Below, piece by piece: positions 36,690 to 53,911 of a stretch of DNA of 53,911 nt. The first letter of the stretch is position 1. Each line of letters opens with the position of its first letter. The notes under the pieces are model-generated. The model had not been told where the DNA came from, did no database searches, and saw nothing but the letters and a program-made list of their open reading frames with translations. Position numbers and translations under genes: made by a program. This DNA comes from Chloroflexota bacterium (GTDB lineage: Bacteria > Chloroflexota > Limnocylindria > P2-11E). The stretch spans positions 1 to 53,911 of the forward strand of contig JAGWSB010000004.1 in NCBI GenBank assembly GCA_028876375.1, in the 5' to 3' direction.

Positions 36690-37075
36690 CCCCATCCCCT
36701 CCTCCTCGCGCTGGTGACGAGAGGGGCGATCCCCACCGCCCCTCCCGTCACCGTTCTCCTCGGGCGGTGGTCATCGCCCACGATCCGCAGATCCGCGAAG
36801 GCTGGGCGCGCTCGCTCGAGGCGACCGGCATGCAGGTGGCGCGGTGCCCCGGGCCGTCCCCGACGTGTCCCCTCGTCCGCGGCGAGGACCACTGCGCGCT
36901 GCTCGACGAGAGCGGCCTCGCCCTGTACCACGAGGGCGTCCTCGGCCCCGACCTCGTCGCGAGGCTCAGCGCGGCGCACACGAGCGCGATGGCCGTGGCG
37001 ACGAAGGATCGCCATCGCGCCGACGGCGGGCACGAGCCGGCCATGTCCCACGTCATCGCCTCCCCGGCCCCCTAG
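36686..37075 (+). CDS. Unknown protein with a receiver-like stretch
   Basis: 129 residues from GTG 36686, overlapping the doxX stop (GTGA); an internal GTG at 36767 is an alternative. Residues from about 27 (AVVIAHDPQIREGWARSLEATG) resemble the first helix of a response-regulator receiver but lack the acidic pair. Three cysteines lie in CPGPSPTCPLVRGEDHC. Function unknown; coupling to doxX suggests a shared redox role. Confidence 0.5.
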   Translation: MTPSPPPRAGDERGDPHRPSRHRSPRAVVIAHDPQIREGWARSLEATGMQVARCPGPSPTCPLVRGEDHCALLDESGLALYHEGVLGPDLVARLSAAHTSAMAVATKDRHRADGGHEPAMSHVIASPAP

Positions 37076-37148
37076 AGCCGCGCAGCGCCTTCGCGCCGAT
37101 CCCTCACCCCGGGGCCCGGCCGCCGACGGGCGGTGAGACCATTAGCGC

Positions 37149-38591: not shown

Positions 38592-39238
38592 GCGAGGAGA
38601 AGCCGATCCGGGTCCTGGTCGTCGACGACCACGAGGTCGTGCGCGAAGGTCTGCGCACGCTCATCGGCAAGCAGAAGGGCATGACCATCGTCGGCGAGGC
38701 CGCCTCGGCGAAGGAAGCGATCGAGACCGCGGCGCGCGCCCGTCCCGACGTCATCGTCATGGACGTCCGGCTCCCCGACGGCAGCGGCATCGAGGCCTGC
38801 CGCGCGATCCGCGAGGCGCGCCCGGGGACCGGCGTGATCATGCTCACCTCGTACGCCGACGACGATGCGCTCTTCGCCGCGATCCTCGCGGGCGCCGCCG
38901 GCTACCTGCTCAAGGACGCGAAGGGGAACACGGTCGTCGAGGCGATCACCGCGGTCGCCGAGGGCCGCTCGCTCCTCGACCCGACCGTCACCGGCAAGGT
39001 CCTCGAGCGCGTGCGCAAGGGCCCCGAGGAGGACCCCGGCCTCGCGTCGCTCACCGACCAGGAGCGCAAGGTGCTCGAGCACGTCGCCGAGGGGAAGACC
39101 AACCGCGAGATCGGCGAGATCATGTTCCTGTCTGAAAAGACCGTGAAGAACTACGTCAGCCGCATCTTGGACAAGCTCGGCCTCGCGCGCCGGGCCGAGG
39201 CGGCGGCGTACATGGCGAAGCGCCGGCCCAAGTACTAG
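38588..39238 (+). CDS. NarL-family response regulator, DosR/DevR-like
   Basis: 216 residues. Receiver: VVDDHEVVREGLRTL, phospho-acceptor Asp59 in VIVMDVRLPDGSGIEACR, ILAGAAGYLLKD. LuxR-type HTH: SLTDQERKVLEHVAEGKTNR and the recognition helix SEKTVKNYVSRIL. The resemblance to M. tuberculosis DosR covers the whole length, including LPDGxGIExCR, GRSLLD, LTDQER and EKTVKNYVSR, whose Lys and Asn residues contact DNA in DosR. The ATG overlaps the kinase stop (ATGA), so the two form one unit. Confidence 0.9.
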   Translation: MSEEKPIRVLVVDDHEVVREGLRTLIGKQKGMTIVGEAASAKEAIETAARARPDVIVMDVRLPDGSGIEACRAIREARPGTGVIMLTSYADDDALFAAILAGAAGYLLKDAKGNTVVEAITAVAEGRSLLDPTVTGKVLERVRKGPEEDPGLASLTDQERKVLEHVAEGKTNREIGEIMFLSEKTVKNYVSRILDKLGLARRAEAAAYMAKRRPKY

Positions 39239-39273
39239 GCCCCGCGACGGCGGCCTTCTCGAGCGCGCCACCT

Positions 39274-39307
39274 GGGACGAACAGCCCTACCCGGTCCCAA
39301 GGGTCCC
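39274..39307. promoter_or_regulatory. Two DosR-box-like sites before the second regulator gene
   Basis: GGGACGAACAGCCC (39274-39287) matches the DosR core at 10 of 14 positions. GGTCCCAAGGGTCCC (39293-39307, reverse GGGACCCTTGGGACC) follows immediately. Together they suggest that the regulator at 39368 is itself controlled by a DosR-like protein. Confidence 0.35.
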
Positions 39308-39367
39308 TTCGAACAGGGGCCGCTCGGTAGTGTCCGGTCCGCACCTCCGGACGCCACTCTGCGGAAC

Positions 39368-40066
39368 ATGCAGACGGCAACAACGCAATCACCTGTCCAG
39401 TCAACGTCGACCTCTGAGGTCAAGCGGCCCGTGCGCATCCTCCTCTGCGACGACCACGAGGTCGTGCGCGAGGGGCTGCGGACCCTCTTGGCCGGCCGGT
39501 CGGACATGCGTGTGGTCGCCGAGGCGGGCACCGCGGCGGACGCCATCGAGGCGGCCGCGCGAGAGACGCCGGACGTCGTGATCATGGACGTCCGCCTCCC
39601 CGACGGGAGCGGGGTCGAGGCCTGCCGCGCCATCCGTGAGATCCTTCCGGCGACGCGCGTGATCATGCTCACGTCGTACCCCGACGACGAGGCGCTCTAC
39701 GCCTCGATCGTGGCCGGCGCCTCCGGCTACCTCCTCAAGCAGACGCGCGCACGCGCGCTCGTCGAGGCCATCGAGACCGTGTCGCGGGGCCGCGCCCTGC
39801 TCGATCCGGACGTCACCGCGCGCGTCCTCGAGCGCGTCCGCAAGGGCCGCGCCGACGAGGACCCCGCGCTGGGGGCGCTGACCGACCAGGAGCGCCGCGT
39901 GCTCGAGCAGCTCGCCACCGGCAAGACGAACCGCGAGATCGGCGAGGCGCTGTTCCTCTCCGAGAAGACGGTGAAGAACTACGTCAGCCGGATCCTCGAG
40001 AAGCTCGGCCTGCACCGCCGCGCCGAGGCCGCCGCGTTCGCCGCGCGCCGAGGGATGAGCTCCTAG
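39368..40066 (+). CDS. NarL-family response regulator, second DosR-like paralogue
   Basis: 232 residues with a 20-residue Thr/Ser-rich N-terminal extension. Receiver with CDDHEVVREGLRTL, Asp74 in VIMDVRLPDGSGVEACR, and YLLKQTR, where the first regulator has YLLKDAK. HTH: LTDQERRVLEQLATGKTNRE and SEKTVKNYVSRILEKLG, identical in the recognition helix to the first. The two regulators likely share the same DNA target. It has its own spacer with two candidate boxes, so it may be separately induced. Confidence 0.9.
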   Translation: MQTATTQSPVQSTSTSEVKRPVRILLCDDHEVVREGLRTLLAGRSDMRVVAEAGTAADAIEAAARETPDVVIMDVRLPDGSGVEACRAIREILPATRVIMLTSYPDDEALYASIVAGASGYLLKQTRARALVEAIETVSRGRALLDPDVTARVLERVRKGRADEDPALGALTDQERRVLEQLATGKTNREIGEALFLSEKTVKNYVSRILEKLGLHRRAEAAAFAARRGMSS

Positions 40067-40365
40067 CGGACCTCGCGTAGCCCATCCGGTCGAGCGTGCT
40101 TCGTCGCACCGCCGTGTGCGGTGCGTGATGCGTCCGGCCTAGACGTCATGCCGTCCGGCCTCATCGGCCTGCCGTACATCCCGAGCCCGATCGCGCGGGA
40201 TGCATCTGATCGGCCCACGTGCCCGTGCCGGACGGCATCGACGATGTCCCGACAGTCCCCACGGCGAGTCGCCACATGTCCCTGCTCACTGTCCCATCCG
40301 TACCGCCCGGAACGATCCGAATGCCGCTTCAGCGACGAGGGGCCTAGGCCGGATGCTCCGACCGT
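40067..40365. promoter_or_regulatory. 299-bp control region before the ferredoxin-NrfD operon
   Basis: No gene is seen. It contains, in order: a terminator-like hairpin (40105-40125), a direct repeat GTCCGGCCT at 40132-40140 and 40153-40161 (21 bp apart, two helical turns), a 12-bp perfect inverted pair ATGCCGTCCGGC (40148-40159) / GCCGGACGGCAT (40227-40238), and a GGGGCCTAGGCC palindrome just before the start codon. This points to a multi-site operator. Confidence 0.4.
40105..40125 (+). terminator. Terminator-like hairpin after the second DosR-like regulator
   Basis: CGCACCGC (40105-40112) pairs exactly with GCGGTGCG (40118-40125) around CGTGT. It starts 38 nt after the stop; no T run. Confidence 0.45.
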
Positions 40366-41157
40366 ATGGCGGATCAGGCGAAGTCCACCGGACCACGCGA
40401 AGCATCCCGTCGTCGTCTACTGAGTGCCTTTGTAGCCGGTGGGGTGGGTCTTGCGGCTGTCCCGCTGGTGCCGATCGCCTTCCCGCAAGCGGAAGCCGCG
40501 ACGCCTCCGAAGAAGAAGCGGCAGTGGGCGATGGTCATCGACCTTCGCCGCTGCGACGGCTGCAAGAAGTGCACCGAGGCGTGCCAGACCACGCACGATC
40601 TGCCTCAGACCTTCGAGTGGATCAAGGTCTTCGAGGTCCAGGACAAGCAGGGCGGCTCGTACTTCATGCCGCGTCCGTGCATGCACTGCGAGAACGCGCC
40701 GTGCCTCCGCGTCTGCCCCGTCGCCGCGACTTTCAAGACGGACGAGGGCGTCATCCTCGTCGACCAGAGCCGCTGCATCGGCTGCCGCATGTGCATGGCG
40801 GCATGCCCCTACGGCGCGCGCTACTTCAACTTCGCTGACCCGCCGAAGCCCCCGAGCCCGTTCGCGCAGCCGACGCCCGAGCATCCCGTCCCGCAGATCA
40901 AGGGCACCGTCGGCAAGTGCATGCTGTGCGTCCACAACACCGTCGACGGCAAGCTCCCCGCGTGCGTCAGCGCGTGCGGGATGCAGGCGCTGTGGATCGG
41001 CGACCTCGTCGAGGACGTCGCGACGAACGGGACCGACACCGTCCGCTTGTCGTCGCTCCTCAAGGACAACGACGCCTTCCGCTACAAGGAAGAGCTCGGC
41101 ACGAGCCCGCGCGTCTATTACATCGCCGGCCACGGCCAGGCGCTGCAGGGCGCGTGA
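40366..41157 (+). CDS. Tat-exported 4x[4Fe-4S] ferredoxin-like oxidoreductase subunit
   Basis: 263 residues. The N-terminus has a twin-arginine signal (EASRRRLLSAFVAGGVG...AEA), so the protein is exported folded. Four iron-sulfur binding blocks follow: CDGCKKCTEAC, CMHCENAPCLRVCP, CIGCRMCMAACPYG and CMLC...CVSACG, in the DmsB/NrfC/PsrB arrangement. It should carry electrons between a membrane quinone site (NrfD, next gene) and a periplasmic partner. The stop overlaps the NrfD start (TGATG). No catalytic molybdopterin or multihaem subunit is next to it. Confidence 0.93.
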   Translation: MADQAKSTGPREASRRRLLSAFVAGGVGLAAVPLVPIAFPQAEAATPPKKKRQWAMVIDLRRCDGCKKCTEACQTTHDLPQTFEWIKVFEVQDKQGGSYFMPRPCMHCENAPCLRVCPVAATFKTDEGVILVDQSRCIGCRMCMAACPYGARYFNFADPPKPPSPFAQPTPEHPVPQIKGTVGKCMLCVHNTVDGKLPACVSACGMQALWIGDLVEDVATNGTDTVRLSSLLKDNDAFRYKEELGTSPRVYYIAGHGQALQGA

Positions 41158-42524
41158 TGGATCGACGGACGCGCGGCCTCTACATCGAGCGCGCCGTTTG
41201 GCCCATCGGCCGCGGCGACCGCAACTTCTGGATCGCCGTCGCCGTGCTCGGCGCTGTCGTCGCCGCGGGCGTCTACGCCTGGATCTACCAAGTCCAGCGC
41301 GGGCTGTGGGTGACCGGCCTCAACCAGAAGGTCTCGTGGGGCTTCTACATCATCAACTGCGTCTTCTTCATCGGCATCAGCTACGGCGGCGCGATGACGA
41401 GCGCGATCCTCCGGCTGACGAACGCCAAGTGGCGCGCCCCGCTCACGAGGATCGCGGAGGCGACGGCGGTCGCGGCTCTCCTGGTCGGGGCGGTCTACCC
41501 GATCGTCGACCTCGGCCGCCCCGACCGCTTCGTCAACATCATCCGCTACGCCCAGATCGGATCCCCGATCGTGTGGGACGTCACCGCGATCACGACGTAC
41601 ATGATCGCCAGCTTCGTATTTCTCTACCTGCCGCTCATCCCCGACCTGGCCGTCGCGCGTGAGGCGCTCAGCCTGTCGCACCGCCGGGAAGCGAAGCTCC
41701 TCGCGCCCGTCTACCGCTTCCTCTCCCTCGGCTGGCGCGGGCGCCCCGCGCAGGAGCGTGCGCTCGCACGCGGGGTCGGGATCATGGCCGTGCTCATCAT
41801 CCCGCTCGCGGTCTCCGTGCACTCCGTGCTCGCGTGGCTCTTCGCCGTGACCGTCCGCGCCGAGTGGCACAGCACGATCTTCGCGCCGCTCTTCGTCCTC
41901 GGGGCGATGTTCTCGGGGGTCGCGGCCGTGATCGTCGTCATCGCGGCCTTCCGCAAGGTCTACGGCCTGCAGCGGTTCATCGAGGCGAAGCACTTCCGGT
42001 ACCTGTCGTATCTGCTCATCGCCCTCGGCGCCGCCTACATCTACTTCATGGTCAGCGAGTACATCACCGACGGGTACGTCTTCGAGGAGTCGACGACGCC
42101 GGTCATGGAAGCGCTCTTCACCGGCCCGTTCGCCATCGCGTTCTGGGCCTTCAGCATCGGCGGGCTGCTGCTCCCCATCGTCATCGCCGCTCTGCCGGGC
42201 CGCTTCCCGATCGCCCGCGCCGTCGGAGCGTCGGGCCTGGTCATCGCCGGGATGTGGCTGAAGCGCTTCCTCATCGTCGTGCCCGGCATGGCCGAGCCGA
42301 TCATGCCGTGGGACTGGGGCCGCTACTCACCCTCGTGGGTGGAGGTCACGATCACGCTCGGATCGGCGGCGGCGATCCCGCTCATGCTCATCCTCTTCTT
42401 CCGCTTCTTCCCGGTCATGTCGGTCCACGAGCTCGACGAGGTCGAGGGCCGCTACGAGCCGGCGCACGCGCCCCTCGCTCCCGGATACGCACCGCTGTAC
42501 GCGGGTGGAGGCGGAGATGACTAG
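41157..42524 (+). CDS. nrfD: NrfD/PsrC-type integral membrane quinone oxidoreductase subunit
   Basis: 455 residues with nine or ten membrane helices. Family segments include VSWGFYIINCVFFIGISYGG, LVGAVYPIVDLGRPDRF, VWDVTAITTYMIASFVFLYL, PLAVSVHSVLAWLF and WHSTIFAPLFVLGAMFSG. NrfD proteins oxidise or reduce menaquinone and pass electrons to the ferredoxin-like subunit. It is coupled to the ferredoxin gene upstream and overlaps the next gene by 8 nt. Confidence 0.93.
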   Translation: MDRRTRGLYIERAVWPIGRGDRNFWIAVAVLGAVVAAGVYAWIYQVQRGLWVTGLNQKVSWGFYIINCVFFIGISYGGAMTSAILRLTNAKWRAPLTRIAEATAVAALLVGAVYPIVDLGRPDRFVNIIRYAQIGSPIVWDVTAITTYMIASFVFLYLPLIPDLAVAREALSLSHRREAKLLAPVYRFLSLGWRGRPAQERALARGVGIMAVLIIPLAVSVHSVLAWLFAVTVRAEWHSTIFAPLFVLGAMFSGVAAVIVVIAAFRKVYGLQRFIEAKHFRYLSYLLIALGAAYIYFMVSEYITDGYVFEESTTPVMEALFTGPFAIAFWAFSIGGLLLPIVIAALPGRFPIARAVGASGLVIAGMWLKRFLIVVPGMAEPIMPWDWGRYSPSWVEVTITLGSAAAIPLMLILFFRFFPVMSVHELDEVEGRYEPAHAPLAPGYAPLYAGGGGDD

Positions 42525-43203
42525 GGGCCTGCGCGTCCTCATCGCGGTACTCGCCCTCGTGGCCGCGACGGTGGTCCTCCAGCTCGACCTCCGGGGGCTG
42601 CTCCCAGGGCAAGTGCGCCTCGAGGCACCCAACACCATGCTCATGTCACCGCCGTCGAGCGGTCAGGGCGCGCCCGGTGGCGTGAGCGCTCAGCGTCCGG
42701 CCGCCGCGGCGGCGCCGAACGCCGCGCGCGTGCAGCTCCGGACGAGCGCGGCGGCCAGCGCGCCCGACGGGTACGTGCTGGCGGCGAGCGTCGCTACACC
42801 GGACGGGCGCCCCGCCGCGGGAGCGACCGTGACCTTCTACGAGGTGGTCGACCTCCTCGGCTCCCGCGAGATGCTCATCGACTCGGCGACGAGCGATGGA
42901 CGAGGGAACGCGTCCGTGGTGTACCTCCCCGCGCGCGCCGGCAGCCACGAGATCGTCGCGCGCTCGACCGGGATCGCCAAGGCGGCGTCGGGCGAGGCCC
43001 GTTCGACCCTCGAGGCGACCGTCACCGCCAAGGCGTATGCGCCAGAGACGCCCTCGATCTCGGCGTTCTACAACGCGGTGCCCTACGGGGTCGGTCTGGT
43101 CGTCCTCGCGGTCTGGCTCCTCATCGCGTTCGCGCTCCTCGGCACGGCTCGCGGCGTCGTTCGCGGCGCACGCAGAGAAGAAGAGAAGGGGGTCATCGCA
43201 TGA
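42517..43203 (+). CDS. Bitopic membrane protein with an Ig-like extracytoplasmic domain
   Basis: 228 residues. Helix near 5-25 (VLIAVLALVAATVVLQLDL), an Ala/Pro-rich linker, a beta-sandwich-like region around 75-160 (YVLAASVATPDGRPAAGATV, TSDGRGNASVVYLPARAGSH) and a second helix near 187-212. The middle resembles bacterial Ig-like or carboxypeptidase-regulatory domains. Overlap with nrfD and the following lipoprotein gene (ATGA) says it belongs to the respiratory complex, perhaps as a periplasmic scaffold. Confidence 0.75.
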   Translation: MTRGLRVLIAVLALVAATVVLQLDLRGLLPGQVRLEAPNTMLMSPPSSGQGAPGGVSAQRPAAAAAPNAARVQLRTSAAASAPDGYVLAASVATPDGRPAAGATVTFYEVVDLLGSREMLIDSATSDGRGNASVVYLPARAGSHEIVARSTGIAKAASGEARSTLEATVTAKAYAPETPSISAFYNAVPYGVGLVVLAVWLLIAFALLGTARGVVRGARREEEKGVIA

Positions 43204-43820
43204 CCAAGCTGGTCCTCCGCGTCCTCGCGTCCGGCGTCGCGCTCGTCCTGGTCGCGGCGTCCTGCGGTGCATCGACCGGCGAAGGCGCACCCGCGGCACC
43301 CGCGGCGAGCGCAGCCCCGGCGACGCAGGCGCAGGCTGCGACCGCCGCGGCACCCGCCCAGCCCCAGTTCCTCGTCGTGATGGGCGACACGATCCGCGGG
43401 AACCTCGGCCTCAACAAGACCGAGATACTCACGACCGCACCCGGCATCCACTGCACCCAGCAGAACCGCTTCCCGCAGGGGGGCCGCATCGTCTGGCGAA
43501 TGAAGGTCATGGACCCTGCGACGGGCAAGTACATGGACAACAAGCAGATCGCGTCGTTCACGATCACCTACCCCGACGGTAAGACCGACAAGCTCGCGTA
43601 CGGCGGACACGGCGGGACCAAGGAGAAGCCGGCCGACATGCTCTGGGCCGTTGGCTACACGGTCCCGAACGACTACCCGACCGGGCTCTTCCCGGTGAAG
43701 ATCGTCGCGACGGATCTCGAGGGACGCACCGGCACCTTCGACCAGTTCAAGGTCGACATCGCGCAGCTCACGATCGTCCCGAAGGGCATGGACTACCCCG
43801 AGAGCCACGAAGCGAAGTAG
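43200..43820 (+). CDS. Lipoprotein of the ferredoxin-NrfD operon
   Basis: 206 residues with a lipoprotein signal (LVLVAASC, Cys near 21) and an Ala/Pro/Gln-rich linker. The mature domain (FLVVMGDTIRGNLGLNKTE, CTQQNRFPQGGRIVWRMKV, YTVPNDYPTGLFPVKIVATD) is beta-rich and Ig-like. The ATG overlaps the previous stop (ATGA). It is probably displayed outside the membrane close to the exported ferredoxin. No catalytic motif is seen. Confidence 0.8.
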   Translation: MTKLVLRVLASGVALVLVAASCGASTGEGAPAAPAASAAPATQAQAATAAAPAQPQFLVVMGDTIRGNLGLNKTEILTTAPGIHCTQQNRFPQGGRIVWRMKVMDPATGKYMDNKQIASFTITYPDGKTDKLAYGGHGGTKEKPADMLWAVGYTVPNDYPTGLFPVKIVATDLEGRTGTFDQFKVDIAQLTIVPKGMDYPESHEAK

Positions 43821-43845
43821 GCGAGCGGCCACGCGTTGAGGAGCA

Positions 43846-43879
43846 GGGGGCGTCGTGGTCAGGGGACCGCGACGCCCCC
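43846..43879 (+). ncRNA. 15-bp RNA hairpin between the two lipoprotein genes
   Basis: GGGGGCGTCGTGGTC (43846-43860) and GACCGCGACGCCCCC (43865-43879) pair with one G-U over 15 bp around an AGGG loop. No T run follows and the next ribosome site (AAAGGA) lies about 6 nt downstream, so it may trim, stabilise or attenuate the operon mRNA rather than end it. Confidence 0.5.
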
Positions 43880-43898
43880 ATGCGAAAGGAATGCATCG

Positions 43899-45404
43899 AT
43901 GCGACTGACAAGGATCCTTGCGCTCAACGCGCTCGTCGGAGCGGCGCTGGTGGGCGCGGCCTGCGGCCAGTCCGGACCGAGCGCCTCGCGGTCACCCGCG
44001 ACGGCGCAGCCGTCCAAGGCCGCCGGCCCGGCGACGGCGGCGCCCGGCGCCGCGGCGTCCCAGCAGGCCATGGACGTCACCGGCAAGTTCACGCTCCAGC
44101 CCGCGCACGGCCCGTGGGACACCAAGGTGACCGCGACCGCCGTGGGGCTCAAGCCGGCGACCGCGTACGACCTCGTGTGGACCGGCGCCAAGGTGCAGTG
44201 GAAGCTCTCGGATGACCGGAGCAAGTACCTCGGACGCGACTACACGACGACGAAGCAGGTGCTGCGGACGATCACGACCGATGCGGCCGGCTCCTTCGTC
44301 GCCACGTTCCCCGTCCCGCAGGGCTTCGGCTATGGGCACGACGTCCAGGTGGTCGACAAGGAGAACGTGATCCGGAACAAGAGCCTCTTCGACGTCGACA
44401 TGGTGACGACCATCACTCCGACCAGCGGACCGGTCGGCACGCCGATCACCGTCGAGGTCAAGGGCATCGGCTACCAGTCGTACCAGAACAGCTTCCAGCT
44501 CGACTACGACAACGCGTACACGGGATGGATCTCGTCCGTCACGACGGACGGCTACGCGAAGCTCGTCATCCCCGCGACCGGCGGGGTGGGCGCGCACTAC
44601 ATCACGATCGGGCACAGCGAGTTCGGCGCGCCGTATCTCAACCCGCAGCAGCAGCCCGTCGTCGCGTCGCGCCCCTTCCCGCACATCGCGTTCACCATCA
44701 CTCCCGGCGACGGCGTCGTCCCGCCTCCGGCGGCGCAGCAGGGCTTGCCGCAGATGGCCGCGAGGCCGGTGGACAAGGGCATCTGGACGTCACCCGCGGG
44801 CGCGACGGTCGGCACGCCCGCGACGCTCGAGGCGAAGGCGCTGCCCGCCGGCAGCGACGTGGAGATCCTCTGGACGACGCAGGTCGGGAACCGCTCGGTG
44901 ACGGGATTCGAGGAGCGCACGAGCACGCTCGGCAAGACGCGCACCGACGCGAACGGCGCCTTCAGCTGGTCCTTCGCGGTCCCCGACGACCTCGGCGGGT
45001 ACCACACCGTCAGCGCGAAGATCGGCGATGCCGTCGTCGCGAAGACGCAGCTCTACATCCTCGCGAGCGCACTTCCGCTCAACGTCGACCGCGGTCCATC
45101 AGGCACGACGACGACGGTGCATCTCAAGGGTGTCGGCTGGACGGAGACCGAGCAGATCTACCACCTCGTGTACGACAACGCGTTCGCGGGATACACCTGC
45201 GCGTTCCAGAGCAAGGGCGACATCACGGTGAACCTCACCGTGTCCGGCGCTCCGGGGTGGCACTTCATCGACATGTACCCGGGGATCTTCCAGGGCACCG
45301 AGACGCGGCCCGCCAACTACAAGATGCCGCAGCTCACCGCGCTCGACGACCACCCCGGTGAGAAGCTTCCGGTCTTCCGCTTCGCCTTCTTCGTGACGCA
45401 ATGA
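43899..45404 (+). CDS. Large lipoprotein with duplicated A-B-A-B Ig-like domains
   Basis: 501 residues; lipobox LVGAAC. After a Ser/Ala/Pro linker two domain types alternate: A1 (about 62-165, HGPWDTKVTATAVGLKPATA), B1 (about 172-255, SGPVGTPITVEVKGIGYQSY with QLDYDNAYTGW), A2 (about 298-385, GATVGTPATLEAKALPAGSD) and B2 (about 390-480, RGPSGTTTTVHLKGVGWTET with HLVYDNAFAGY). B1 and B2 are clear duplicates. It is the last gene of the operon and probably a surface adhesin-like or electron-transfer scaffold. The function is unknown. Confidence 0.8.
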   Translation: MRLTRILALNALVGAALVGAACGQSGPSASRSPATAQPSKAAGPATAAPGAAASQQAMDVTGKFTLQPAHGPWDTKVTATAVGLKPATAYDLVWTGAKVQWKLSDDRSKYLGRDYTTTKQVLRTITTDAAGSFVATFPVPQGFGYGHDVQVVDKENVIRNKSLFDVDMVTTITPTSGPVGTPITVEVKGIGYQSYQNSFQLDYDNAYTGWISSVTTDGYAKLVIPATGGVGAHYITIGHSEFGAPYLNPQQQPVVASRPFPHIAFTITPGDGVVPPPAAQQGLPQMAARPVDKGIWTSPAGATVGTPATLEAKALPAGSDVEILWTTQVGNRSVTGFEERTSTLGKTRTDANGAFSWSFAVPDDLGGYHTVSAKIGDAVVAKTQLYILASALPLNVDRGPSGTTTTVHLKGVGWTETEQIYHLVYDNAFAGYTCAFQSKGDITVNLTVSGAPGWHFIDMYPGIFQGTETRPANYKMPQLTALDDHPGEKLPVFRFAFFVTQ

Positions 45405-45411
45405 AAAGGAG

Positions 45412-45444
45412 CCGGTCCGCGCTCGAGCGAGGGGCGCGGATCGG
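45412..45444 (+). terminator. Hairpin terminator after the ferredoxin-NrfD operon
   Basis: CCGGTCCGCGC (45412-45422) pairs with GCGCGGATCGG (45434-45444), 11 bp with one G-U, starting 8 nt after the stop codon. No T run. Confidence 0.5.
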
Positions 45445-45576
45445 CACCACCCTTTCGCGTGGGACCGCTCCGCCGATGTGCCCGATCGCAGGGGCCGTAT
45501 GCAGGATGCCCTCGGGCCTGATAGCGCTACCGAGCACGCCGACCGCCGCGTACCGTCGGTCGCCGGAGGAATAGAG

Positions 45577-46221
45577 GTGGCAGTACACGTTCCGGCGCTT
45601 CCGCGTCCCGACGTCTGGCACCGGCGCTTCGGCCCGACGCTGGCGCTCCTCCTCGTGCTCGTTCCCTTCGCCGCCATCCTCACGGTGGCCGCGCTCTCGG
45701 CGGCGCCCGCGGACGAGACCGACGTCGCGGTCACCCTCAACGACACCGCCGCGCTCGTCGACTCCCATGCCGAGGCGATGCTCACCGTGGGGCAGCGCAT
45801 CACCGCCGCGGCGCAGGCGTCGAGCGCTTCCGACCGCCTCTCGTGGATCGCCTACGGGCAGCACATGGTCTCGGACGGCAAGGACCTGCAGGGCCTGGCT
45901 TCGCGCATGCGAGACGACGCCGTCGTCGCCGCGGAGGACCCGCTGCACAGCGGACGCAACGTCGCCGTCAGCGCGCTGCAAGCGCGCTGGGAGCAGCTGA
46001 AGGCCGACGGCCAGACGACGGCGACGCACGGTCGCGTCATGCAATCGATCACTCAGGACATGGCGCCCGCCATCTCGAGCGGCATCGTCAGCGCCGCGGA
46101 CGCGAAGAAGCTCCAGGACGCATCGACCGGGATGGTCGACGCGGGCGAGCGCATCGTGAGCGCGGCGAACGTCCTCCTCGCGTCGACGGATCAGATGCAG
46201 CGCTGGATGGGCAACCCCTAG
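45577..46221 (+). CDS. Membrane-anchored helical protein of unknown function
   Basis: 214 residues from GTG 45577 behind GGAGGA. One membrane helix (about 20-42, PTLALLLVLVPFAAILTVAA) is followed by an alpha-helical, Ala/Asp/Ser-rich outer domain (residues 45-214) of regular heptad-like pattern, similar in look to four-helix sensor or scaffold domains. No cysteines or kinase parts are present. An upstream start at 45478 is less likely because it lacks a ribosome site. Confidence 0.65.
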   Translation: MAVHVPALPRPDVWHRRFGPTLALLLVLVPFAAILTVAALSAAPADETDVAVTLNDTAALVDSHAEAMLTVGQRITAAAQASSASDRLSWIAYGQHMVSDGKDLQGLASRMRDDAVVAAEDPLHSGRNVAVSALQARWEQLKADGQTTATHGRVMQSITQDMAPAISSGIVSAADAKKLQDASTGMVDAGERIVSAANVLLASTDQMQRWMGNP

Positions 46222-46424
46222 AGCATCCCCAGCGCCGCGGCATCACTCCGCGAACGAGCTGACGAGGCGTTTGCCTCGCCCGGCCGACCGACGGCGGGCC
46301 CGGCGTGTCCCGCCACGTCCCGAACGTAGGAGGGCAGCCCGCGGCGCCACAGAGCCCGAACGACCCCGGGTAGGGGGCGGGACGGCCCTGGGGGACCGAC
46401 GATCCGAGCGCGGACTATCCGCCC
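46222..46424. promoter_or_regulatory. 203-bp spacer before the PCYCGC gene
   Basis: After a short hairpin (46263-46278) the region is GC-rich with no gene. Near the start codon lie GGGTAGGGGGCGGGACGGCCC (ending at 46387) and TATCCG (46414-46419), the latter 5 nt before the GTG at 46425, compatible with a near-leaderless start. Confidence 0.3.
46263..46278 (+). terminator. Short hairpin after the helical membrane protein
   Basis: CGAGGC (46263-46268) pairs with GCCTCG (46273-46278) around GTTT, 42 nt after the stop. Confidence 0.35.
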
Positions 46425-46892
46425 GTGCGCCGCCGCGCTTTCCTCTTCCTCGGGGCGAGCTCCCTCTCCACGGCCTGCATCCGCGCGTTGCGCACCCCCA
46501 CCGCATGGCAGTCGCAGTCGGCGCCGCCGGCGTCGAAGATGGCCGCCAACCCCAGCGCCGGGATGTGGCCGGACGCGCTGGGGGCGACGCCGGCGGCGAC
46601 GCAGGAGGCGTACAAGTGGGCCGCCGTGAACCGGGCCACTCTCCGCTACATCCCCTGCTACTGCGGCTGCGCGGGTATCGGCCACAAGGACAACTTCGAC
46701 TGCTACGTCAGCGAGATCCGCGACGGCGGCTGGCTGGTGCTCTCCGACCACGCCCTGGGCTGACGCACATGCGTGGACATCACGCGTGACGTGATGACGA
46801 GCCTCCCGACGCAGAGCCTCAAGGACATCCGAGCCGCCATCGATGCCAAGTACTCCGGCGTCGGGCGCGGGACGCCCACCATCCTCCCTTAG
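46425..46892 (+). CDS. PCYCGC-family lipoprotein, candidate selenoprotein (in-frame UGA = Sec113)
   Basis: 155 residues if UGA at 46761-46763 is read as selenocysteine; 112 if read as stop. The signal region has a lipobox-like LSTAC. The family motif PCYCGC (Cys78, 80, 82) is followed by AGIGHKDNFDCYVSE. After the UGA the same frame continues with RTCVDITRDVMTSLPTQSLK, DIRAAIDAKYSG and GTPTILP, ending at TAG 46890. In PCYCGC proteins this C-terminal part is a known continuation (HAxGCxxCVDI...IRxxIDxKY), and the UGA sits at the first Cys of that CxxC, giving U-R-T-C. A perfect 7-bp hairpin with loop CGUGA follows at 46778-46796. GTG start. Alternatives are a recent nonsense mutation or a sequencing error. 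The protein is expected outside the membrane and metal- or redox-active. Confidence 0.7.
46778..46796 (+). promoter_or_regulatory. Candidate bacterial SECIS hairpin
   Basis: CATCACG (46778-46784) and CGTGATG (46790-46796) pair over 7 bp with a five-base loop CGTGA. The loop begins 22 nt after the UGA and has G at its second position followed by U, as in the E. coli SelB-binding loop. Distance and loop fit the usual limits for bacterial SECIS elements. Confidence 0.5.
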
Positions 46893-46904
46893 GAAGGCGC
46901 TCAC

Positions 46905-46999
46905 TAAAGGTGTCCCAAAAGGTCCGGGCCGGAAGGCCCATAGGGTTGCGCCGTAGGTCCCTGTTCGCCGCCAAGCGGCGCCGACACTGTTCGGACAAG
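46905..46999 (+). promoter_or_regulatory. Possible structured leader before the REC-wHTH-PAS gene
   Basis: Contains GGGCC-GGAA-GGCCC (46926-46939, a GNRA-capped hairpin), CGCCGC-CAA-GCGGCG nearer the start codon, and outer GTGTC/GACAC segments that could enclose both. It also holds GTCCCAAAAGGTCCG, which on the reverse strand reads CGGACCTTTTGGGAC, like the DosR-type boxes elsewhere. No known riboswitch is recognised. Confidence 0.3.
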
Positions 47000-48073
47000 A
47001 TGGCCGCGCAGCACGACGGTGGACCGGTCCTGGTCGCTGAGGACGATCTCGAGCTCCTCGGCAAGCTCCGCGAGGCGCTACGCGCCGAAGACCTTCTCGT
47101 CGTCGCCTCCCGCAGCGTGCGCGCCGCGGTCGAGGCCGGCGCGTTCCACCGCCCCGCCGTCGTCGTCGTCGACCTCGGCATGGACGGCGGCCGCGGCTGG
47201 GAGCTGCTCCACGCCATGGGCAGCCGCCCCGGCACCGCGGTGCTCGCGCTCGACCGGCGCGGCGACCAGCTGGTGCGGCGTGGCGCGTTCTCCGCGGGTG
47301 CCGCCGACGTCGCCGGGCCACCGCTCGATGCGGCCGAGATCGCGGCGCGCGCGCGGTCGCTGTACCGCCGCGAACGCGGCGACGGCGACCCGGGTCCGGT
47401 GCTCCGACACCGCGACCTCGTGCTCGACGTTCCGCTCCACGAGGTGCGCGTCGGCGGTCGGCCGACCACGCTCACGCCGCAGCAGTTCGCCATCCTCCGC
47501 GCGCTCCTCGAGGCCCGCGGGGCAACGCTGCACCGCTCCCAGCTGCTCGCGCGCATCGCGGCCGTCGACGACGAGCCGCCCTCGGAGCGCGCGGTCGACC
47601 TCCACGTCTCGCGTCTGCGCCGCCGCCTCGGAGTGGGCAAGGACCACCACCGCTACATCGAGGCGGTGTACGGCATCGGCTACCGCTTGGCCGCGACGGA
47701 TGCGCCTGCCGCGCTCCCGTCCGACGTCGCGAACAGCGTTCTCGACGCGGTGACCGAAGGCGTCCTGGTGGTCGATCCGAGCATGCGCATCCGGGCCGCC
47801 AATCGCGCCGCGATGCGCACGCTCGAGCGCGAGGATCTGGTCGGCAGGCCGTGCGAAGAGGTCATGGGCTGCCGCACGCCGGAGGGGAACACGATCACCG
47901 GTCCGACGTGTCTCGGACGCGCCGTCCTCGCCGGAGGCGGAGCGATCCCGCGCGTGCCGATGTGCGTGCGATCGAACGGCTCCTTCATCGACGTCGACCT
48001 CTCGCACACCGCCGTGCACGTCGACGGCGGCAACACCCTGTTGGCCATCGAGGTCCGGCACAAGCCCGACTGA
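47000..48073 (+). CDS. REC - winged helix - PAS regulator with degenerate receiver
   Basis: 357 residues from ATG 47000. Residues 10-125 form a receiver (LVAEDDLELLGKLREAL; Asp in VVVVDLGMDGG) but the usual Lys-Pro after the last strand is absent (ADVAGPP). Next is an OmpR-type winged helix (TTLTPQQFAILRALLEARGA, VDLHVSRLRRRLG, YGIGYRL). The C-terminal third is a PAS domain (SVLDAVTEGVLVVDPSMRIR) with cysteines in PCEEVMGCRTPEG and GPTCLGRAVL. A PAS domain after the DNA-binding domain is unusual and suggests direct redox or ligand sensing. It follows the PCYCGC gene by 107 nt. Confidence 0.85.
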   Translation: MAAQHDGGPVLVAEDDLELLGKLREALRAEDLLVVASRSVRAAVEAGAFHRPAVVVVDLGMDGGRGWELLHAMGSRPGTAVLALDRRGDQLVRRGAFSAGAADVAGPPLDAAEIAARARSLYRRERGDGDPGPVLRHRDLVLDVPLHEVRVGGRPTTLTPQQFAILRALLEARGATLHRSQLLARIAAVDDEPPSERAVDLHVSRLRRRLGVGKDHHRYIEAVYGIGYRLAATDAPAALPSDVANSVLDAVTEGVLVVDPSMRIRAANRAAMRTLEREDLVGRPCEEVMGCRTPEGNTITGPTCLGRAVLAGGGAIPRVPMCVRSNGSFIDVDLSHTAVHVDGGNTLLAIEVRHKPD

Positions 48074-48097
48074 CATCGAACGGACGATCTTCGTCCG

Positions 48098-48103
48098 TAC
48101 GGT
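48098..48103 (+). promoter_or_regulatory. -10 hexamer (TACGGT) for the benzoyl-CoA reductase operon
   Basis: TACGGT ends 6 nt before ATG 48110 with no ribosome site. ACGGACGATCTTCGTCCGT just before it is an inverted repeat (ACGGACGA / TCGTCCGT around TCT), a possible operator. Confidence 0.45.
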
Positions 48104-48109
48104 GCGCGC

Positions 48110-48544
48110 ATGGCCGCATCCGGTACCCAGCTCCGACCGAGATCGCTGACCGTCGCTGACGCGGAAGCACTGGCCGCGCTTTCGCTGAAGCTGGGCGGAA
48201 GCGAGACGGTCGCGCAGTGGGTGGCCTTCTTCGGGCGTCCCCACGCCATCGCCGTCGGGTCGATCGCCGACGGCCACATCGTCGGGTACGCCGCCGGAGA
48301 GGTCCGCACCGGGTTCGGCCTGCCGAAGCCGGTCGCCTGGGTCGAGGCGTTCGGGATCGATCTCGAATACCGCGGCGCAGGTCTGGGCCGCACCCTCCTC
48401 GGCGAGCTCCTCCGTCGAGCCGCCACGCTCGGTGCGGCCCACATCTACACGCTCGTGCCCGTGCACGACCGCGTTCTCGCGCCCTTCTTCCGGCAGCTCG
48501 GCTTCCGCGACGAACCGCTCAGTTGTTTGGGGTGTTCGCTATGA
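48110..48544 (+). CDS. GNAT-family acetyltransferase heading the benzoyl-CoA reductase operon
   Basis: 144 residues. The acetyl-CoA binding motif A is VEAFGIDLEYRGAGLGRTLL (R/Q-x-x-G-x-G/A type) near residue 79-98, followed by the helix LGELLRRAATLGAAHIYTLV and the final FFRQLGFRDEPL. Its stop overlaps the ATG of the next gene (ATGA), so it is made together with the reductase subunits. It may acetylate a protein lysine, for instance to tune acyl-CoA enzymes; the substrate is unknown. Confidence 0.85.
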   Translation: MAASGTQLRPRSLTVADAEALAALSLKLGGSETVAQWVAFFGRPHAIAVGSIADGHIVGYAAGEVRTGFGLPKPVAWVEAFGIDLEYRGAGLGRTLLGELLRRAATLGAAHIYTLVPVHDRVLAPFFRQLGFRDEPLSCLGCSL

Positions 48545-49701
48545 CGATGACCTTCGAGAGCTACCGCGACGTCATCGAGGATCGTGAGTACCCGACCGTG
48601 CGCGAGTGGCGCGATCGGACCGGCGGCAAGGTGATCGGGTGCTTCCCCGTGTACGCGCCCGTCGAGGTGCCGTACAGCCTGGGGATGCTCCCGATCGGCC
48701 TCTTCGGCGGCGGCAACCGCGTGGAGATCGCCAACGCCGACTCACGGTTCCAGTCGTTCATCTGCTCGATCGTGAAGAGCACGCTCGAGCTCGGCTTCAT
48801 CGGCAAGCTCGACGTCCTCGACGGCCTGATGTTCCACTCCATCTGCGACCCGGCCCGGAACCTGGCGAGCGTGATGGGGCGGAACTTCCCGCAGCGGCCG
48901 GCGGTGTTCGTCCACCTGCCGCAGAACTTCCAGTCCCCCTTGGCCGCGCAGTACATGGCGACCGAGCTGCGGCGCGCCGCGGACGAGCTCGGCGCGATCG
49001 CCGGCCGCAAGGCCCGCGACGAGGACCTCGCCGCGGCGATCGTGGCGTACGACAAGGTGCGCGAGCTCCAGCGGCGCCTCTACGCTCTCCGCAGCTCCTC
49101 GCCGGAGCGCATCTCGACGAGCGAGCTGTACACGCTCTCGCGCCTCGCGACCCTCATGGATCCCAAGGACGTCGCCCCCATCCTCGAGGCGGCGCTCGCC
49201 GGCGCGATCAAGAGGACGGAGCGCCCCAAGGACCGCATCCGCGTCGTCCTCGCCGGATCCTTCTGCGAGCAGCCACCGCTCGAGCTCATCGAGAGCCTCG
49301 AGCAGGCCGGCTGCTACATCGTCGACGACGACTTCCTGCTCGGTTGGCGCACGCAGCGTCACCCGATCGAGGTGAACGGCGATCCTTTCCTCGCGCTCGG
49401 GAACGCGTACGTGAACGATTCACACCACCTGAGCCCCAAGCACGACCTGCGCAAGCCGCGAGCGGCGGGGCTCATCGAGAGCGCCAAGGCGAACCGCGCG
49501 GACGCGGTCATCTTCCTCGGCGCGAAGTTCTGCGAGCCCGGCCTGTTCGACTACGCGCTCTATCGGAAGGCACTCGAGACGAGCTCGATCCCGCATCTCA
49601 TGCTCGAGTTCGAAGAGAAGATGTGGCTGTACGACCGCATCCGCAGCGAGGTCGAGACGTTCGTCGAGTCGATGCTGTTTGCGGAGGCGAAAGCGTCATG
49701 A
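48541..49701 (+). CDS. bcrC: Benzoyl-CoA reductase subunit C-type (HgdA/BcrC/BadD family)
   Basis: 386 residues, the size of BcrC/BadD. Family stretches are [65 protein letters not shown] and [20 protein letters not shown]. Conserved cysteines (in FICS, SICD and FCEQ) are candidate iron-sulfur ligands. With the next gene it should form the catalytic half that reduces the aromatic ring of benzoyl-CoA at low potential. Related 2-hydroxyacyl-CoA dehydratase subunits are the main alternative. Confidence 0.85.
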
Positions 49702-51029
49702 CGCCAGCAACGACCGCGACACCGACGAAGAAGCCCGCGGCGGACGCCAAGCCCGCCGCGCCGGCGATCAAGTACCAGGGCACCGTCCACGAGCTGCAGA
49801 AGCAGCTCATGAGCAAGTACTACGCGGACCTCACGAGCATCGCCGAGGGCGGCCCCGGGCGGAGCGCGCAGCTCCTCATCGCGGGCAACCCGGTCGAGGT
49901 CCTCCGCACGTTCGACATGATCCCCGTGTTCCCCGAGATCAACGCGCTCCAGCTCGCCGTGCGCAAGAACTCGCTCCCGCTCATCCAGAAGGCCGAGGAG
50001 CTCGGGTACTCCACCGACAACTGCGCCTACGTGAAGGCCGACATCGGCATGTGGGAGAACGGCGGCAAGACGCCGTTCGCCACCATCCCCAAGCCCGACG
50101 TCCTCGTCTGCAACTACGTCGGGTGCAACGTCTACCTCAACTGGTTCGAGCATCTCGCCGAGAAGGTCGGGTCGCCGGCCATCAACATCGACATCCCGTT
50201 CATGCGGACGAAGGACGGCCAGCCCGCGGAGGGCGACGTAGAGTACGTCGTCGCGCAGCTCAAGGAGCTCGTGAAGCTCCTCGAGAAGGTCACCGGGATG
50301 CCGTTCGACGAGGACAAGTTCGTCAAGATCGTGGAGCGCTCCTCGCGCGTCGGCCAGCTGTGGTCGCAGATCCGCGACCTCACGAAGAAGCGCCCGACGC
50401 CGTACGACGCGTACTTCGACTCGGTCACGATGATGGCGCCGCTCTACTGCCTCCGCGGCACGGAGGAGGCCGTCGACTTCTTCGAGCGGACGCTCGAGGA
50501 GATGACGGCGAAGGTCGAGCGCGGCGAAGGCGCGCTCCCCGACGGGGAGAAGTTCCGCATCGTCATCGAGGGCCCGCCGCCGTGGCCCTTCCTGCGCGTC
50601 TTCCGCGACATGTTCAGCCGCTGGGGCGCGGTCGCGGTCGCCTCGACGTACGCGACGGTCGGCGGCATCTGGGAGTTCGGGTTCCATCACGACCCCGCGC
50701 ACCCGTTCGAGAGCGTGGCCAAGCACATGATCGAGGCCAACCTCTGCAACCGCTCGATGCTCCAGCGGTACGACCAGATCTGGCGGTACGCGCAGGAGTG
50801 GAGCGCCGACGCGCTCGTCATCCACTCCGTCAAGAGCTGCCGCCTCTTCTCCGCGGGGCAGGGCGACATGCGCGAGCACTTCGTGCACGACCGCGACCTG
50901 CCGACGCTGCTCATCGAGTCGGACCTCGAGGACCCGCGCTACTTCTCGCAGGCGCAGCTGCGCAACCGCATCGACGCGTTCTTCGAGGCGCTGGAGCAGA
51001 GGCGCATCACCGGAGGGAAAGCGGCATGA
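49698..51029 (+). CDS. bcrB: Benzoyl-CoA reductase subunit B-type (HgdB/BcrB/BadE family)
   Basis: 443 residues with an Ala/Lys/Pro-rich N-terminal extension of about 25 residues. Family features: [76 protein letters not shown] and [33 protein letters not shown]. Cysteines in DNC, VCNYVGC and SCRLF are likely cluster ligands. The ATG overlaps the previous stop (ATGA) and its own stop overlaps the next ATG. Confidence 0.87.
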
Positions 51030-51838
51030 GCGAAGGGATGAGATACAGCGCGGGCGTCGACGTCGGGTCGACGCAGACCAAGGCGGTCATCCTCGACGAG
51101 ACGGGCGCCATCGTCGCGCGCGCCCTCACCGACACCGGGGCGTACCTCGTGCGCGCCGCGGAGCGCGCCTACGAGCAGGCGCTCCAGTCGGCGGGGGTCC
51201 ATCGCGAGCAGGTCGGCTACGTCATCGGCACCGGGTACGGCCGGTTCAACGTCGCGTTCGGCGACGCGCAGGTCACGGAGATCGGCTGTCACGCCAAGGG
51301 GGCGTGGTCGATCTTCCCGAACACGCGGACCGTCATCGACATCGGCGGCCAGGACACGAAGGCCATCGCCGTCTCCGACCGCGGCGAGGTGCTCGACTTC
51401 GCGATGAACGACAAGTGCGCCGCCGGGAGCGGGCGGTTCCTCACCAACTCGGCCGAAGCGTGCGGCATGGACGTGTCGCAGATGGGGGAGAAGTCCCTCA
51501 CCGCGAAGAATCCGGTGCGCCTGTCCACCGTGTGCACCGTCTTCGTCGAGTCGGACATCCTCTCGTACATGGCCCAGGGCAAGAAGATCGACGACATCCT
51601 CGCCGGCGTCCACTCCGCCATCGCGTCCCGCACCGTCGCCCTCGTGCGCCGCGTCGGCTCCAAGGAAGAGGTCACCTTCACCGGCGGCGTCTCGCGGAAC
51701 ATCGGCATGCGGCAGGCGATCGAGGAGAAGCTCGGCGTCAAGATCAACGCGAGCGGCGATTCCCACTACACGGGCGCCATCGGCGCCGCGGTCTTCGCGC
51801 TCGAGCGCATGAAGGCCGCGCCCGCCGCGGTGGCATAG
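51026..51838 (+). CDS. bcrA: Benzoyl-CoA reductase ATPase subunit A-type (BcrA/BadF/HgdC family)
   Basis: 270 residues of the BadF/BadG/BcrA/BcrD ATPase family (ASKHA fold). Nucleotide-binding segments are [24 protein letters not shown] and [12 protein letters not shown]; the subunit-bridging [4Fe-4S] cysteines are in [12 protein letters not shown] and [11 protein letters not shown]. It couples ATP hydrolysis to electron transfer into the reductase core. At 270 residues it is of the short (Bzd/HgdC-like) type rather than the 430-residue Thauera BcrA. Confidence 0.9.
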
Positions 51839-51847
51839 GAGGGCGGA

Positions 51848-52654
51848 ATGAGCCTCATCGCAGGGGTCGACATGGGAGCGCGCAGCGCCAAGGCGGTCGT
51901 CATCGACCGCAGCGGCGTCATGCGCGGGAACGCGATCGGCCGGATGCGTCCGGACTTCGAGGGCCTCGCGAGCGAGGTCGTCGACAAGGCGGTCGCCATG
52001 GCGGGGGCCAAGCGGAGCGACGTCGACTACGTCGCGACGACCGGCCTCGGCCGCTACAACGTGAGCTTCCGCGACATCCAGATCACCGACATCACGACCG
52101 TCGCGCGCGGCGCGGCGCACCTCTTCCCGAACACGCGCTGCGTCATCGACATCGGCGCCCAGAGCACGCGCGCGATCCGCATCCTCGAGGGCGGCCGGGT
52201 CAAGGAGTTCCGCTCCAACGACAAATGCGCCGCCGGCGCCGGCGGGTTCGCCGAGCGGACCGCGCGGTACCTCGAGGTCAAGCTCGACGACCTCGGCGCT
52301 CTCTCCGAGCACGCCGAGTCGGCGCAGGAGATCTCCTCGGTGTGCGCCGTCTTCGCCGAGTCCGAGATCATCAACCTCGTCACGGCGGGGCACTCCGTCG
52401 AGAACATCATCCGCGGCGTCCACAACTCGCTCGGCCAGCGCGCGCAGCAGCTGCTCAAGCGCGTCGGGATCGAGCCGGAGATCACGTTCGTCGGCGGGAT
52501 GGCGAAGCAGAGCGGCATGGTCAAGGCGCTCGAGGCGGCGCTCGGCATGCAGGTGAACGTCGCCGCCGACCCCGACCTCGTCGCGGCGCTCGGCGCCGCG
52601 CTCCTCGGCCTGCAGCGCTCGACGCGCGCCGGCGAGGAGAGGAGGGCCGCATGA
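51848..52654 (+). CDS. bcrD: Benzoyl-CoA reductase ATPase subunit D-type (BcrD/BadG family)
   Basis: 268 residues, paralogous to the gene before it: AGVDMGARSAKAVVIDRSG, TGLGRYNVSF, DIGAQSTRAIRI, NDKCAAGAGGFAE and SSVCAVFAESE. Two different ATPase subunits side by side are the hallmark of class I benzoyl-CoA reductase, whereas hydroxyacyl-CoA dehydratases use one homodimeric activator. It follows bcrA by 9 nt with GGAGGGCGG upstream, and its stop overlaps the next start (ATGA). Confidence 0.9.
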   Translation: MSLIAGVDMGARSAKAVVIDRSGVMRGNAIGRMRPDFEGLASEVVDKAVAMAGAKRSDVDYVATTGLGRYNVSFRDIQITDITTVARGAAHLFPNTRCVIDIGAQSTRAIRILEGGRVKEFRSNDKCAAGAGGFAERTARYLEVKLDDLGALSEHAESAQEISSVCAVFAESEIINLVTAGHSVENIIRGVHNSLGQRAQQLLKRVGIEPEITFVGGMAKQSGMVKALEAALGMQVNVAADPDLVAALGAALLGLQRSTRAGEERRAA

Positions 52655-53619
52655 GCGTCATCGCTCCGCGCGCGCCGAGCGAGCTCGGCTTCAAGGACGT
52701 CATCTACAAGAAGGACGGCTGGGTCGCGACGGTGATGATCGACCGTCCCGAGGCCTACAACTCGTACACCGTCTCGACCCTCAGGGAGATCGCGGAGGCG
52801 TTCAAGGACATCTCGCGCGACGACCACATCGCGGTCGGCGTCCTCACCGGGGCCGGGGACACGGCCTTCTGCACCGGCGGCGACGTCAAGGAGTACGCCT
52901 CCGAGTACACGCAGCGGCCGCGCGACTACTGGAAGTACATGACCTACTTCATCGACGCGATCGACGCGATCAAGAACTGCGGCAAGCCGACGATCGCGCG
53001 CGTCAACGGGATGGCCGTCGGCGGCGGCAACGAGATGAACTCCGCGTGCGACCTCGCCATCGCGGCCGAGCACGCGCGCTTCAAGCAGGTCGGCGTGCAG
53101 GTCGGGAGCGTCGCGGCCGGAGGCGCCACGCAGTGGCTGCCCATCATCATCGGGGACCGTCGCGCGCGCGAGATGCTCATGACCTGCGAGTTCATCGACG
53201 CCAAGACCGCCCTCGACTGGGGCCTCGTCAACCAGGTCGTGCCCAAGGAGCAGCTCGACGACGCGGTCGCCAAGCTCGCGGCGAAGCTCGTCGATACCTT
53301 CCCCGAGTGCATGCGCTACACGAAGACGCAGGCGAACTTCTGGAAGGACTTCGTGTGGTCGATGACCGGACCCCACGCGAAGGACTGGCTGTCGCTCCAC
53401 TTCGCGGCGCTCGAGCCGTACGAAGGAATGACGGCCTTCACCCAGAAGCGCAAGGCCGACCGCGTCGGGATCCGCGAGCGCGCGGCGTCCGGCGGATCGA
53501 GCGAGTTCGTCTGGGGCCCCAACGCCCGCACCTGCCCCAAGTGCAAGGCCGAGGGTCTTCCCGCGGCCTTCGCCTTCTGCGGCAAGTGCGGCGCCGCGCT
53601 TCCGGCGAACGGAGGGTGA
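52651..53619 (+). CDS. Crotonase-family BamA/Oah-like hydrolase with C-terminal zinc ribbon
   Basis: 322 residues. The enoyl-CoA hydratase core resembles 6-oxocyclohex-1-ene-1-carbonyl-CoA hydrolase: PEAYNSYTVSTLREIAEAF, GAGDTAFCTGGDVKEYASEY, TQRPRDYWKYM, NCGKPTIARVNGMAVGGGNE. This enzyme opens the ring in the benzoyl-CoA pathway; a dienoyl-CoA hydratase role is the alternative. Residues about 293-318 add CPKC and FCGKCG, a zinc ribbon not normally part of these enzymes, which may mediate partner binding. At about 265 residues the core is shorter than typical BamA. Confidence 0.82.
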   Translation: MSVIAPRAPSELGFKDVIYKKDGWVATVMIDRPEAYNSYTVSTLREIAEAFKDISRDDHIAVGVLTGAGDTAFCTGGDVKEYASEYTQRPRDYWKYMTYFIDAIDAIKNCGKPTIARVNGMAVGGGNEMNSACDLAIAAEHARFKQVGVQVGSVAAGGATQWLPIIIGDRRAREMLMTCEFIDAKTALDWGLVNQVVPKEQLDDAVAKLAAKLVDTFPECMRYTKTQANFWKDFVWSMTGPHAKDWLSLHFAALEPYEGMTAFTQKRKADRVGIRERAASGGSSEFVWGPNARTCPKCKAEGLPAAFAFCGKCGAALPANGG

Positions 53620-53623
53620 GGGC

Positions 53624-53911
53624 ATGACCCTCACCGCTCCGGCCCCCGTGGCCCAGCGTGAGCTGGAGGGCCGCGTCGCCATCGTCACCGGCGGGTCGAA
53701 GGGGATCGGTCAGGCCATCGTCCGGGAGCTCGCGGCGCGTGGAGCCGACATCGTCTTCACCTACCGCTCGGACGACGACGGGGCCCGCTCCACGATCGCC
53801 TCCGTCGACGGCGCGGGGCGGCGGGCCGTCGCCCAGCGGGCCGACATGCGGGAGGCGGGCGCCGCCGCGCACGTCGCGCAGGCGGCGAAGGACATCTTCG
53901 GCCGCCTCGAC
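53624..53911 (+). CDS. Short-chain dehydrogenase/reductase (3' end outside window)
   Basis: The first 96 residues are present. The NAD(P)-binding motif is VAIVTGGSKGIGQAIVREL, followed by GADIVFTYRSDDDGARS and DMREAGAAAHVAQAAKDIFG. The ATG lies 4 nt after the previous stop with GGAGGG upstream. In context it could oxidise the hydroxyl intermediate of the benzoyl-CoA pathway or a beta-oxidation intermediate. The catalytic Ser-Tyr-Lys residues are beyond the window. Confidence 0.88.
   Translation, partial: MTLTAPAPVAQRELEGRVAIVTGGSKGIGQAIVRELAARGADIVFTYRSDDDGARSTIASVDGAGRRAVAQRADMREAGAAAHVAQAAKDIFGRLD

Follow-up and report, generated by a model that had tools for sequence, protein, structure and literature searches.

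A PCYCGC-family gene of a Chloroflexota bacterium with a probable selenocysteine codon and a SECIS-type hairpin that may have reshaped the encoded protein

An open reading frame for a PCYCGC-family protein in a Chloroflexota bacterium is interrupted by a single UGA, which raises the question of whether this codon ends the protein or is decoded as selenocysteine. The frame lies in a stretch of 53,911 nucleotides, the whole of which is referred to here as the window. The following elements were considered:

46425..46892, + strand: candidate PCYCGC-family selenoprotein gene, 155 amino acids if the UGA is read through; GTG start assumed
46425..46478, + strand: signal peptide (RRRAFL..., Tat-like) with lipid-anchor Cys18, predicted from the sequence
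46653..46670, + strand: PCYCGC motif, residues 77 to 82; P77, C78, C80, G81, and C82 invariant in alignment A2
46761..46763, + strand: in-frame UGA, the predicted codon for selenocysteine U113; aligned with an invariant Cys and shared by 23 distinct genes
46770..46772, + strand: Cys116, second Cys of U-x-x-C; invariant in A2
46778..46796, + strand: SECIS-type hairpin whose stem has 7 bp in the window and a 6-bp core (46779-46784/46790-46795) and the loop CGUGA (46785-46789)

As the initial annotation had proposed, the frame is open on either side of the UGA, which is its only internal stop, and it terminates with a UAG codon. The read-through sequence has the layout V...C18...IPCYCGC...ALG-U113-RTC...P, with an additional Cys93 and a conserved helical tail following U113-R-T-C116. 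The signal peptide and Cys18 were predicted according to the motif rules for lipoproteins and for Tat signals, and C18 is nearly invariant (at least 90% of the 106 rows of A2). This alignment was not selected by the UGA column; it includes four UGA genes, in which the codon was entered as Cys, and leaves out the short matches P0013 to P0015, P0018, P0050, P0098, P0100, and P0118. Since C113 and C116 are invariant across the 106 rows, U-R-T-C stands for C-x-x-C, and the UGA thus occupies the first Cys of that motif, as had been claimed. Moreover, the Pfam scan of the read-through protein (P0001) up to an E value of 1 returned PF13798 as the sole family, at 82.4 bits against a cut-off of 25. The match covers profile positions 39 to 153 of 153 and crosses the UGA, so the part downstream of it is the normal continuation of PCYCGC proteins, and the conserved columns of the family include both the motif at P77-C82 and the downstream U113/C116 pair. 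Among the NCBIfam models, the only notable match was NF041379, "CYCXC family (seleno)protein," which spans U113 and scores 45 bits against a cut-off of 90.

The initial annotation had allowed for the possibility of a lone UGA among Cys-bearing relatives. Among the window's kin, 121 genomes including its own were searched and 18 contained a homologue. Exactly one internal TGA occurred in 9 of the 18, always at the window's column; three genomes of the same family carry Cys there. A named-genome collection, from which the best 80 of at least 584 relatives were kept, so that its Cys:UGA ratio is not a frequency, added UGA forms from one Gemmatimonadales, one Anaerolineae, and one Caldilineae genome. 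The search of 400 Chloroflexota genomes with the NF041379 profile gave matches in 36, none of the 400 reaching the cut-off of 90 bits, and contributed 10 additional UGA genes, from beyond the order to which the window belongs. In the search of 298 Gemmatimonadota genomes, PF13798 was detected in 43, and two of the six rows with a TGA, L066 (identical to L185) and L190, carry it at the window's column. After removal of 19 duplicate loci, 110 distinct genes were counted, 22 with UGA and 88 with Cys, and L190 raises the former to 23, drawn from Chloroflexota and Gemmatimonadota; the UGA genes share ancestry, and these counts are not independent events. The counting pattern accepted only Cys or UGA, and L034, L053, L116, and L122, which fall outside it and hence outside the 88, all have Cys at the site. 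In the homologues counted, this column holds either Cys or UGA, and 22 further distinct genes in two phyla, rather than this strain alone, carry the UGA.

Apart from the window's own entry, the 13 top-scoring database proteins (P0003 to P0015) include 12 that stop just before the UGA column, among them P0011, which is named in NCBI, and one full-length Cys protein (P0012). If the UGA encodes selenocysteine, those 12 entries are truncated.

Other internal stops met in the same searches were examined as possible recoding events. An in-frame TAG in 13 Gemmatimonadota rows, considered as a second recoding, was rejected, since in 13/13 it simply terminates a shorter protein, and the same holds for the TAA of L194 and the TGA of L195, L196, L197, and L209. 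They belong to a short Gemmatimonadota PF13798 form (L191 to L217), with the pattern CxCxC...H.SLL.CF...H...C-x-x-C, which ends soon after the CxxC half and whose stops account for the false internal TAG, TAA, and TGA codons in read-through searches.

The hairpin described in the initial annotation, CAUCACG-CGUGA-CGUGAUG, was found as claimed, with seven base pairs starting 14 nt past the UGA. In all 23 UGA genes the stem begins 14 to 15 nt after the codon and the inner five pairs occupy the same place. Bacterial SECIS elements have a G within the first two loop bases, and the loops of the UGA genes, CGTGA in 21 and CGGGA in 2, present it in 23/23. Among the 88 Cys genes, five pairs are possible in 7, by chance of coding and with loops CAGGA or CAAGA, and the loop CGTGA occurs in none.

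Changes on both sides of the stem are seen in L136, L127, and L190 (A-U to G-C) and, additionally, in L127 and L190 (G-C to C-G). For the 21 distinct rows, the share of paired cells is 97.6%, both-sided changes amount to five cells, and the covariation score stands at 0.182, the last two values being reached by 0 of 500 shuffles; in the 21 rows including L190, the number of both-sided pairs was matched by 42/500 shuffles and the pair types by 245/500. The RNAalifold consensus of a 22-row alignment coincides with the reported hairpin, and sliding the hairpin partner destroys most pairs. When folded alone, the window's 42-nt piece prefers another hairpin (z of -0.90, 35 of 200 shuffles being as good). 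Thermodynamic stability was consequently dropped as evidence, the lone fold being hardly more stable than the shuffles, and the alternative helix was rejected as well: across relatives 72.5% of its cells are paired, no better than shuffles, compared with 98.3% for the reported hairpin. Furthermore, with a covariance model that included the window's own sequence, the site scored 53.6 bits (E 6e-13); the runner-up in the genome, where 150 of 4797 first-look candidates were scored, reached 15.7 bits (E 0.16).

The hairpin also leaves a mark on the protein that it overlaps. The codon in the hairpin loop has a counterpart in the 88 Cys genes that specifies Gln in 63 cases and Arg in four (CGC three times, CGG once); in the UGA genes the loop codon is the Arg codon CGT in 21 of 22 and CGG in the other one, as well as in L190. 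Across the 11 neighbouring genes, CGT accounts for 18 of 253 Arg codons. A Cys relative from the window's family, L019, encodes the same ITRDV by means of CGC and GTC, which break a stem pair and change the loop, as expected where selection on the RNA is absent. From these counts we infer that the RNA element rewrote the protein, most Cys forms having Gln and all 23 Sec forms found having Arg, and in the simplest reading it would be the need for a G at the second loop base that fixed the Arg.

A lack of selB and of tRNA-Sec in the genome had been named in the initial annotation as an observation that would speak against selenocysteine. The source assembly (2.6 Mb, 134 contigs, 89.8% complete) was therefore searched for selA, selB, tRNA-Sec, and selD, and all four were found. 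The tRNA-Sec scores 75.5 bits (cut-off 47), with ARAGORN in agreement on the anticodon tca, and shares one contig with selB (344.8 bits) and selA (524.5 bits). The selD gene (337 bits) itself contains one in-frame TGA, in the context CAG-U-GAKLG, and is another selenoprotein gene of this genome, belonging to a well-known type (L014, C28:88193-89119). In a survey of 22 UGA-bearing genomes, to which the 23rd, G565, did not belong, selB was above the cut-off in 18 (the window's own, 6 of 8, and 11 of 13) and was not found in G001 (88% complete), G027 (76%), G235 (82%), and G467. It was also present in 30 of 34 relatives of the window whatever the codon, and its presence is thus permissive rather than specific.

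The coincidence of a UGA at a Cys column, a SECIS-type hairpin, and the Sec machinery strongly supports the selenoprotein gene that had been proposed, and we consider it very probable that the UGA is read as selenocysteine. In particular, the hairpin would signal insertion by SelB and tRNA-Sec, and the UGA would likely be read as U113 of U-x-x-C, giving a selenoprotein of 155 residues that is presumably exported and lipid anchored. A true stop at this codon would leave a protein of 112 residues devoid of the CxxC half, with the remainder as a relic. Even though gene callers end the gene there, as do the 12 database entries mentioned above, a relic would decay, whereas the 23 UGA genes retain the part after the UGA, in which the hairpin fixes third-codon positions, and the genome holds the Sec machinery; a true stop is accordingly improbable.

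Readthrough by other means, such as Trp suppression or a reassigned code, would also fit a frame open on both sides, but the column is invariantly Cys in A2, and such readthrough is at odds with the presence of the hairpin and the Sec machinery. Furthermore, 7 of the 11 neighbouring genes end in UGA as their normal stop, so the code is not reassigned, and we regard this explanation as very unlikely. As for a single wrong or mutated base in a TGC or TGT codon, introduced during sequencing or assembly or by local mutation, the fragmentation of the assembly could make it conceivable, but the same UGA and hairpin recur in 22 further distinct genes from other assemblies, which renders it barely credible. 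We thus retain selenocysteine as the preferred reading.

A quick tree of 111 sequences was computed after masking the Sec column and the residues encoded by the hairpin. It requires 8 changes between UGA and Cys, against a mean of 21.3 after shuffling, and places three Cys genes of the window's family among UGA genes. Repeated exchange of UGA and Cys is suggested, on a tree that is poorly resolved (13 of 108 inner branches starred, the starred branches forcing only one change).

The statement of the initial annotation that no selenoprotein had been described in this family does not stand. A 2026 review lists a "CYCXC family protein (hypothetical protein OS_HP4)" with PF13798, UxxC, and the accession MFC1881021.1 as "Predicted with high confidence" (PMC13188914), OS_HP4 is given as UxxC and credited to the 2007 Olavius symbiont paper (PMC9312934), and the very name of NF041379 includes the word (seleno)protein. 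In full-text literature searches, selenoprotein and PF13798 occurred together only in that review, and no match paired selenoprotein with PCYCGC. The window's protein resembles OS_HP4 and NF041379 in having PF13798 and one predicted Sec in a UxxC (PMC13188914, PMC9312934), and differs in lying below the equivalog cut-off; OS_HP4 by name was not among the listed matches of two protein searches. Since the conserved CxxC of the PF13798 alignments examined here is C113-C116, the only one conserved in the family, the published UxxC very probably corresponds to the same site.

The family is therefore already a predicted selenoprotein family in print, and the window's gene mainly widens its known range. 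The main text of the review contains no occurrence of Chloroflexi, Chloroflexota, or Gemmatimonadota, and the gene belongs to a subfamily and to phyla that are not mentioned there for the published family (PMC13188914). What is new is a protein under the NF041379 cut-off, nearest database entries that in 12 of 13 cases stop at the UGA, and an RNA element that coincides with a Gln-to-Arg change. Compared with Cys-form PCYCGC (lipo)proteins, such as Parageobacillus AOT13_14730, the window's protein shares the lipobox, the PCYCGC motif, and further conserved cysteines; the Cys forms differ in having Cys for the UGA in the 88 counted genes, Gln in 63 of these for the loop-encoded Arg, and no CGUGA loop.

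The function of PCYCGC (lipo)proteins has been described as unknown (PMC13068155). Of 71 Cys loci, among which one genome is counted twice, as L035 and L176, 58 have a gene for a CuA-type (COX2-like) cupredoxin directly downstream, as do 5 of the 22 UGA loci, a set to which L190 does not belong; for the downstream copy of L090, the CuA-type assignment is supported by Pfam. TlpA-like genes occur within 5.5 kb in 5 of the 22 UGA loci. The protein also shows a weak resemblance to the N-terminal domain of CcmH (PF03918; PDB 2kw0), which stayed weak with trimmed query regions chosen by hand; the best Foldseek match against the PDB has an E value of 4.5, and no sequence relative was found in the PDB up to an E value of 10. 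The neighbouring cupredoxin genes in relatives, together with the CcmH-like match, suggest a role in CuA upkeep, and we tentatively hold it possible that the protein is a periplasmic thiol/selenol reductase for the maintenance of CuA-type copper sites in respiratory proteins. The reductase activity would reside in U113 and C116, where a predicted helix begins, the cysteines of CYCGC may bind copper, and the CuA-type cysteines would be kept reduced or loaded in the way that TlpA/Sco serves cytochrome oxidase subunit II.

TlpA reduces ScoI and COX II (PMC6696091, PMC9145763). The likeness to the TlpA/Sco assembly system concerns the proposed job, in which CuA cysteines would be kept reduced or loaded with copper; the difference is that no thioredoxin-fold match is listed for the window's protein. 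NosZ was rejected as a general partner, being present in 8 of 23 UGA-bearing genomes and without a match in the window's own genome.

A job unrelated to CuA, for instance as a general envelope thiol reductase, in defence against peroxide or heavy metals, or in copper storage, has somewhat better than an even chance, with selenocysteine inserted all the same. It is favoured by the 17 of 22 UGA loci without an adjacent CuA gene, the window included (no CuA-type gene was found at 36001-53911), and by CopA-like matches, two of them weak, within 5.5 kb in 4 of the 22, whereas the downstream cupredoxin genes counted above argue against it. It is also possible to hypothesize, although we consider this rather unlikely, a selenium-dependent branch of CuA biogenesis, in which U-x-x-C PCYCGC lipoproteins of Chloroflexota and Gemmatimonadota would reduce, and perhaps metallate, the CuA cysteines of cytochrome-oxidase-type and NosZ-type proteins, with a SECIS requirement strict enough to have rewritten the adjacent protein.

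Further observations concern the surroundings of these genes. PCYCGC is fused to DUF1573 (PF07610) in P0130, P0146, P0149, and P0165, 50 of the 71 Cys loci have DUF1573-like genes no farther than 5.5 kb away, and DUF1573 is listed as a UGC selenoprotein family (PMC13188914). In the window, positions 40366-42524 encode Fe-S (Fer4_11) and NrfD membrane subunits, with no catalytic molybdoenzyme recognized by eye among the listed open reading frames. Positions 48553-52654, again by eye, hold subunits similar to benzoyl-CoA reductase or 2-hydroxyacyl-CoA dehydratase and two BadF-type activator ATPases, with an enoyl-CoA hydratase-like frame after them.

Thus, a predicted selenoprotein family that was named from a worm symbiont spans several Chloroflexota lineages and Gemmatimonadota, and most of the nearest database entries, by ending at the UGA, lack the likely active half of the protein. 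With one small protein occurring in a Sec and a Cys form, a clean natural comparison is available, and the family provides a testable link between the use of selenium and the upkeep of CuA in respiration, which in some hosts extends to the reduction of nitrous oxide.
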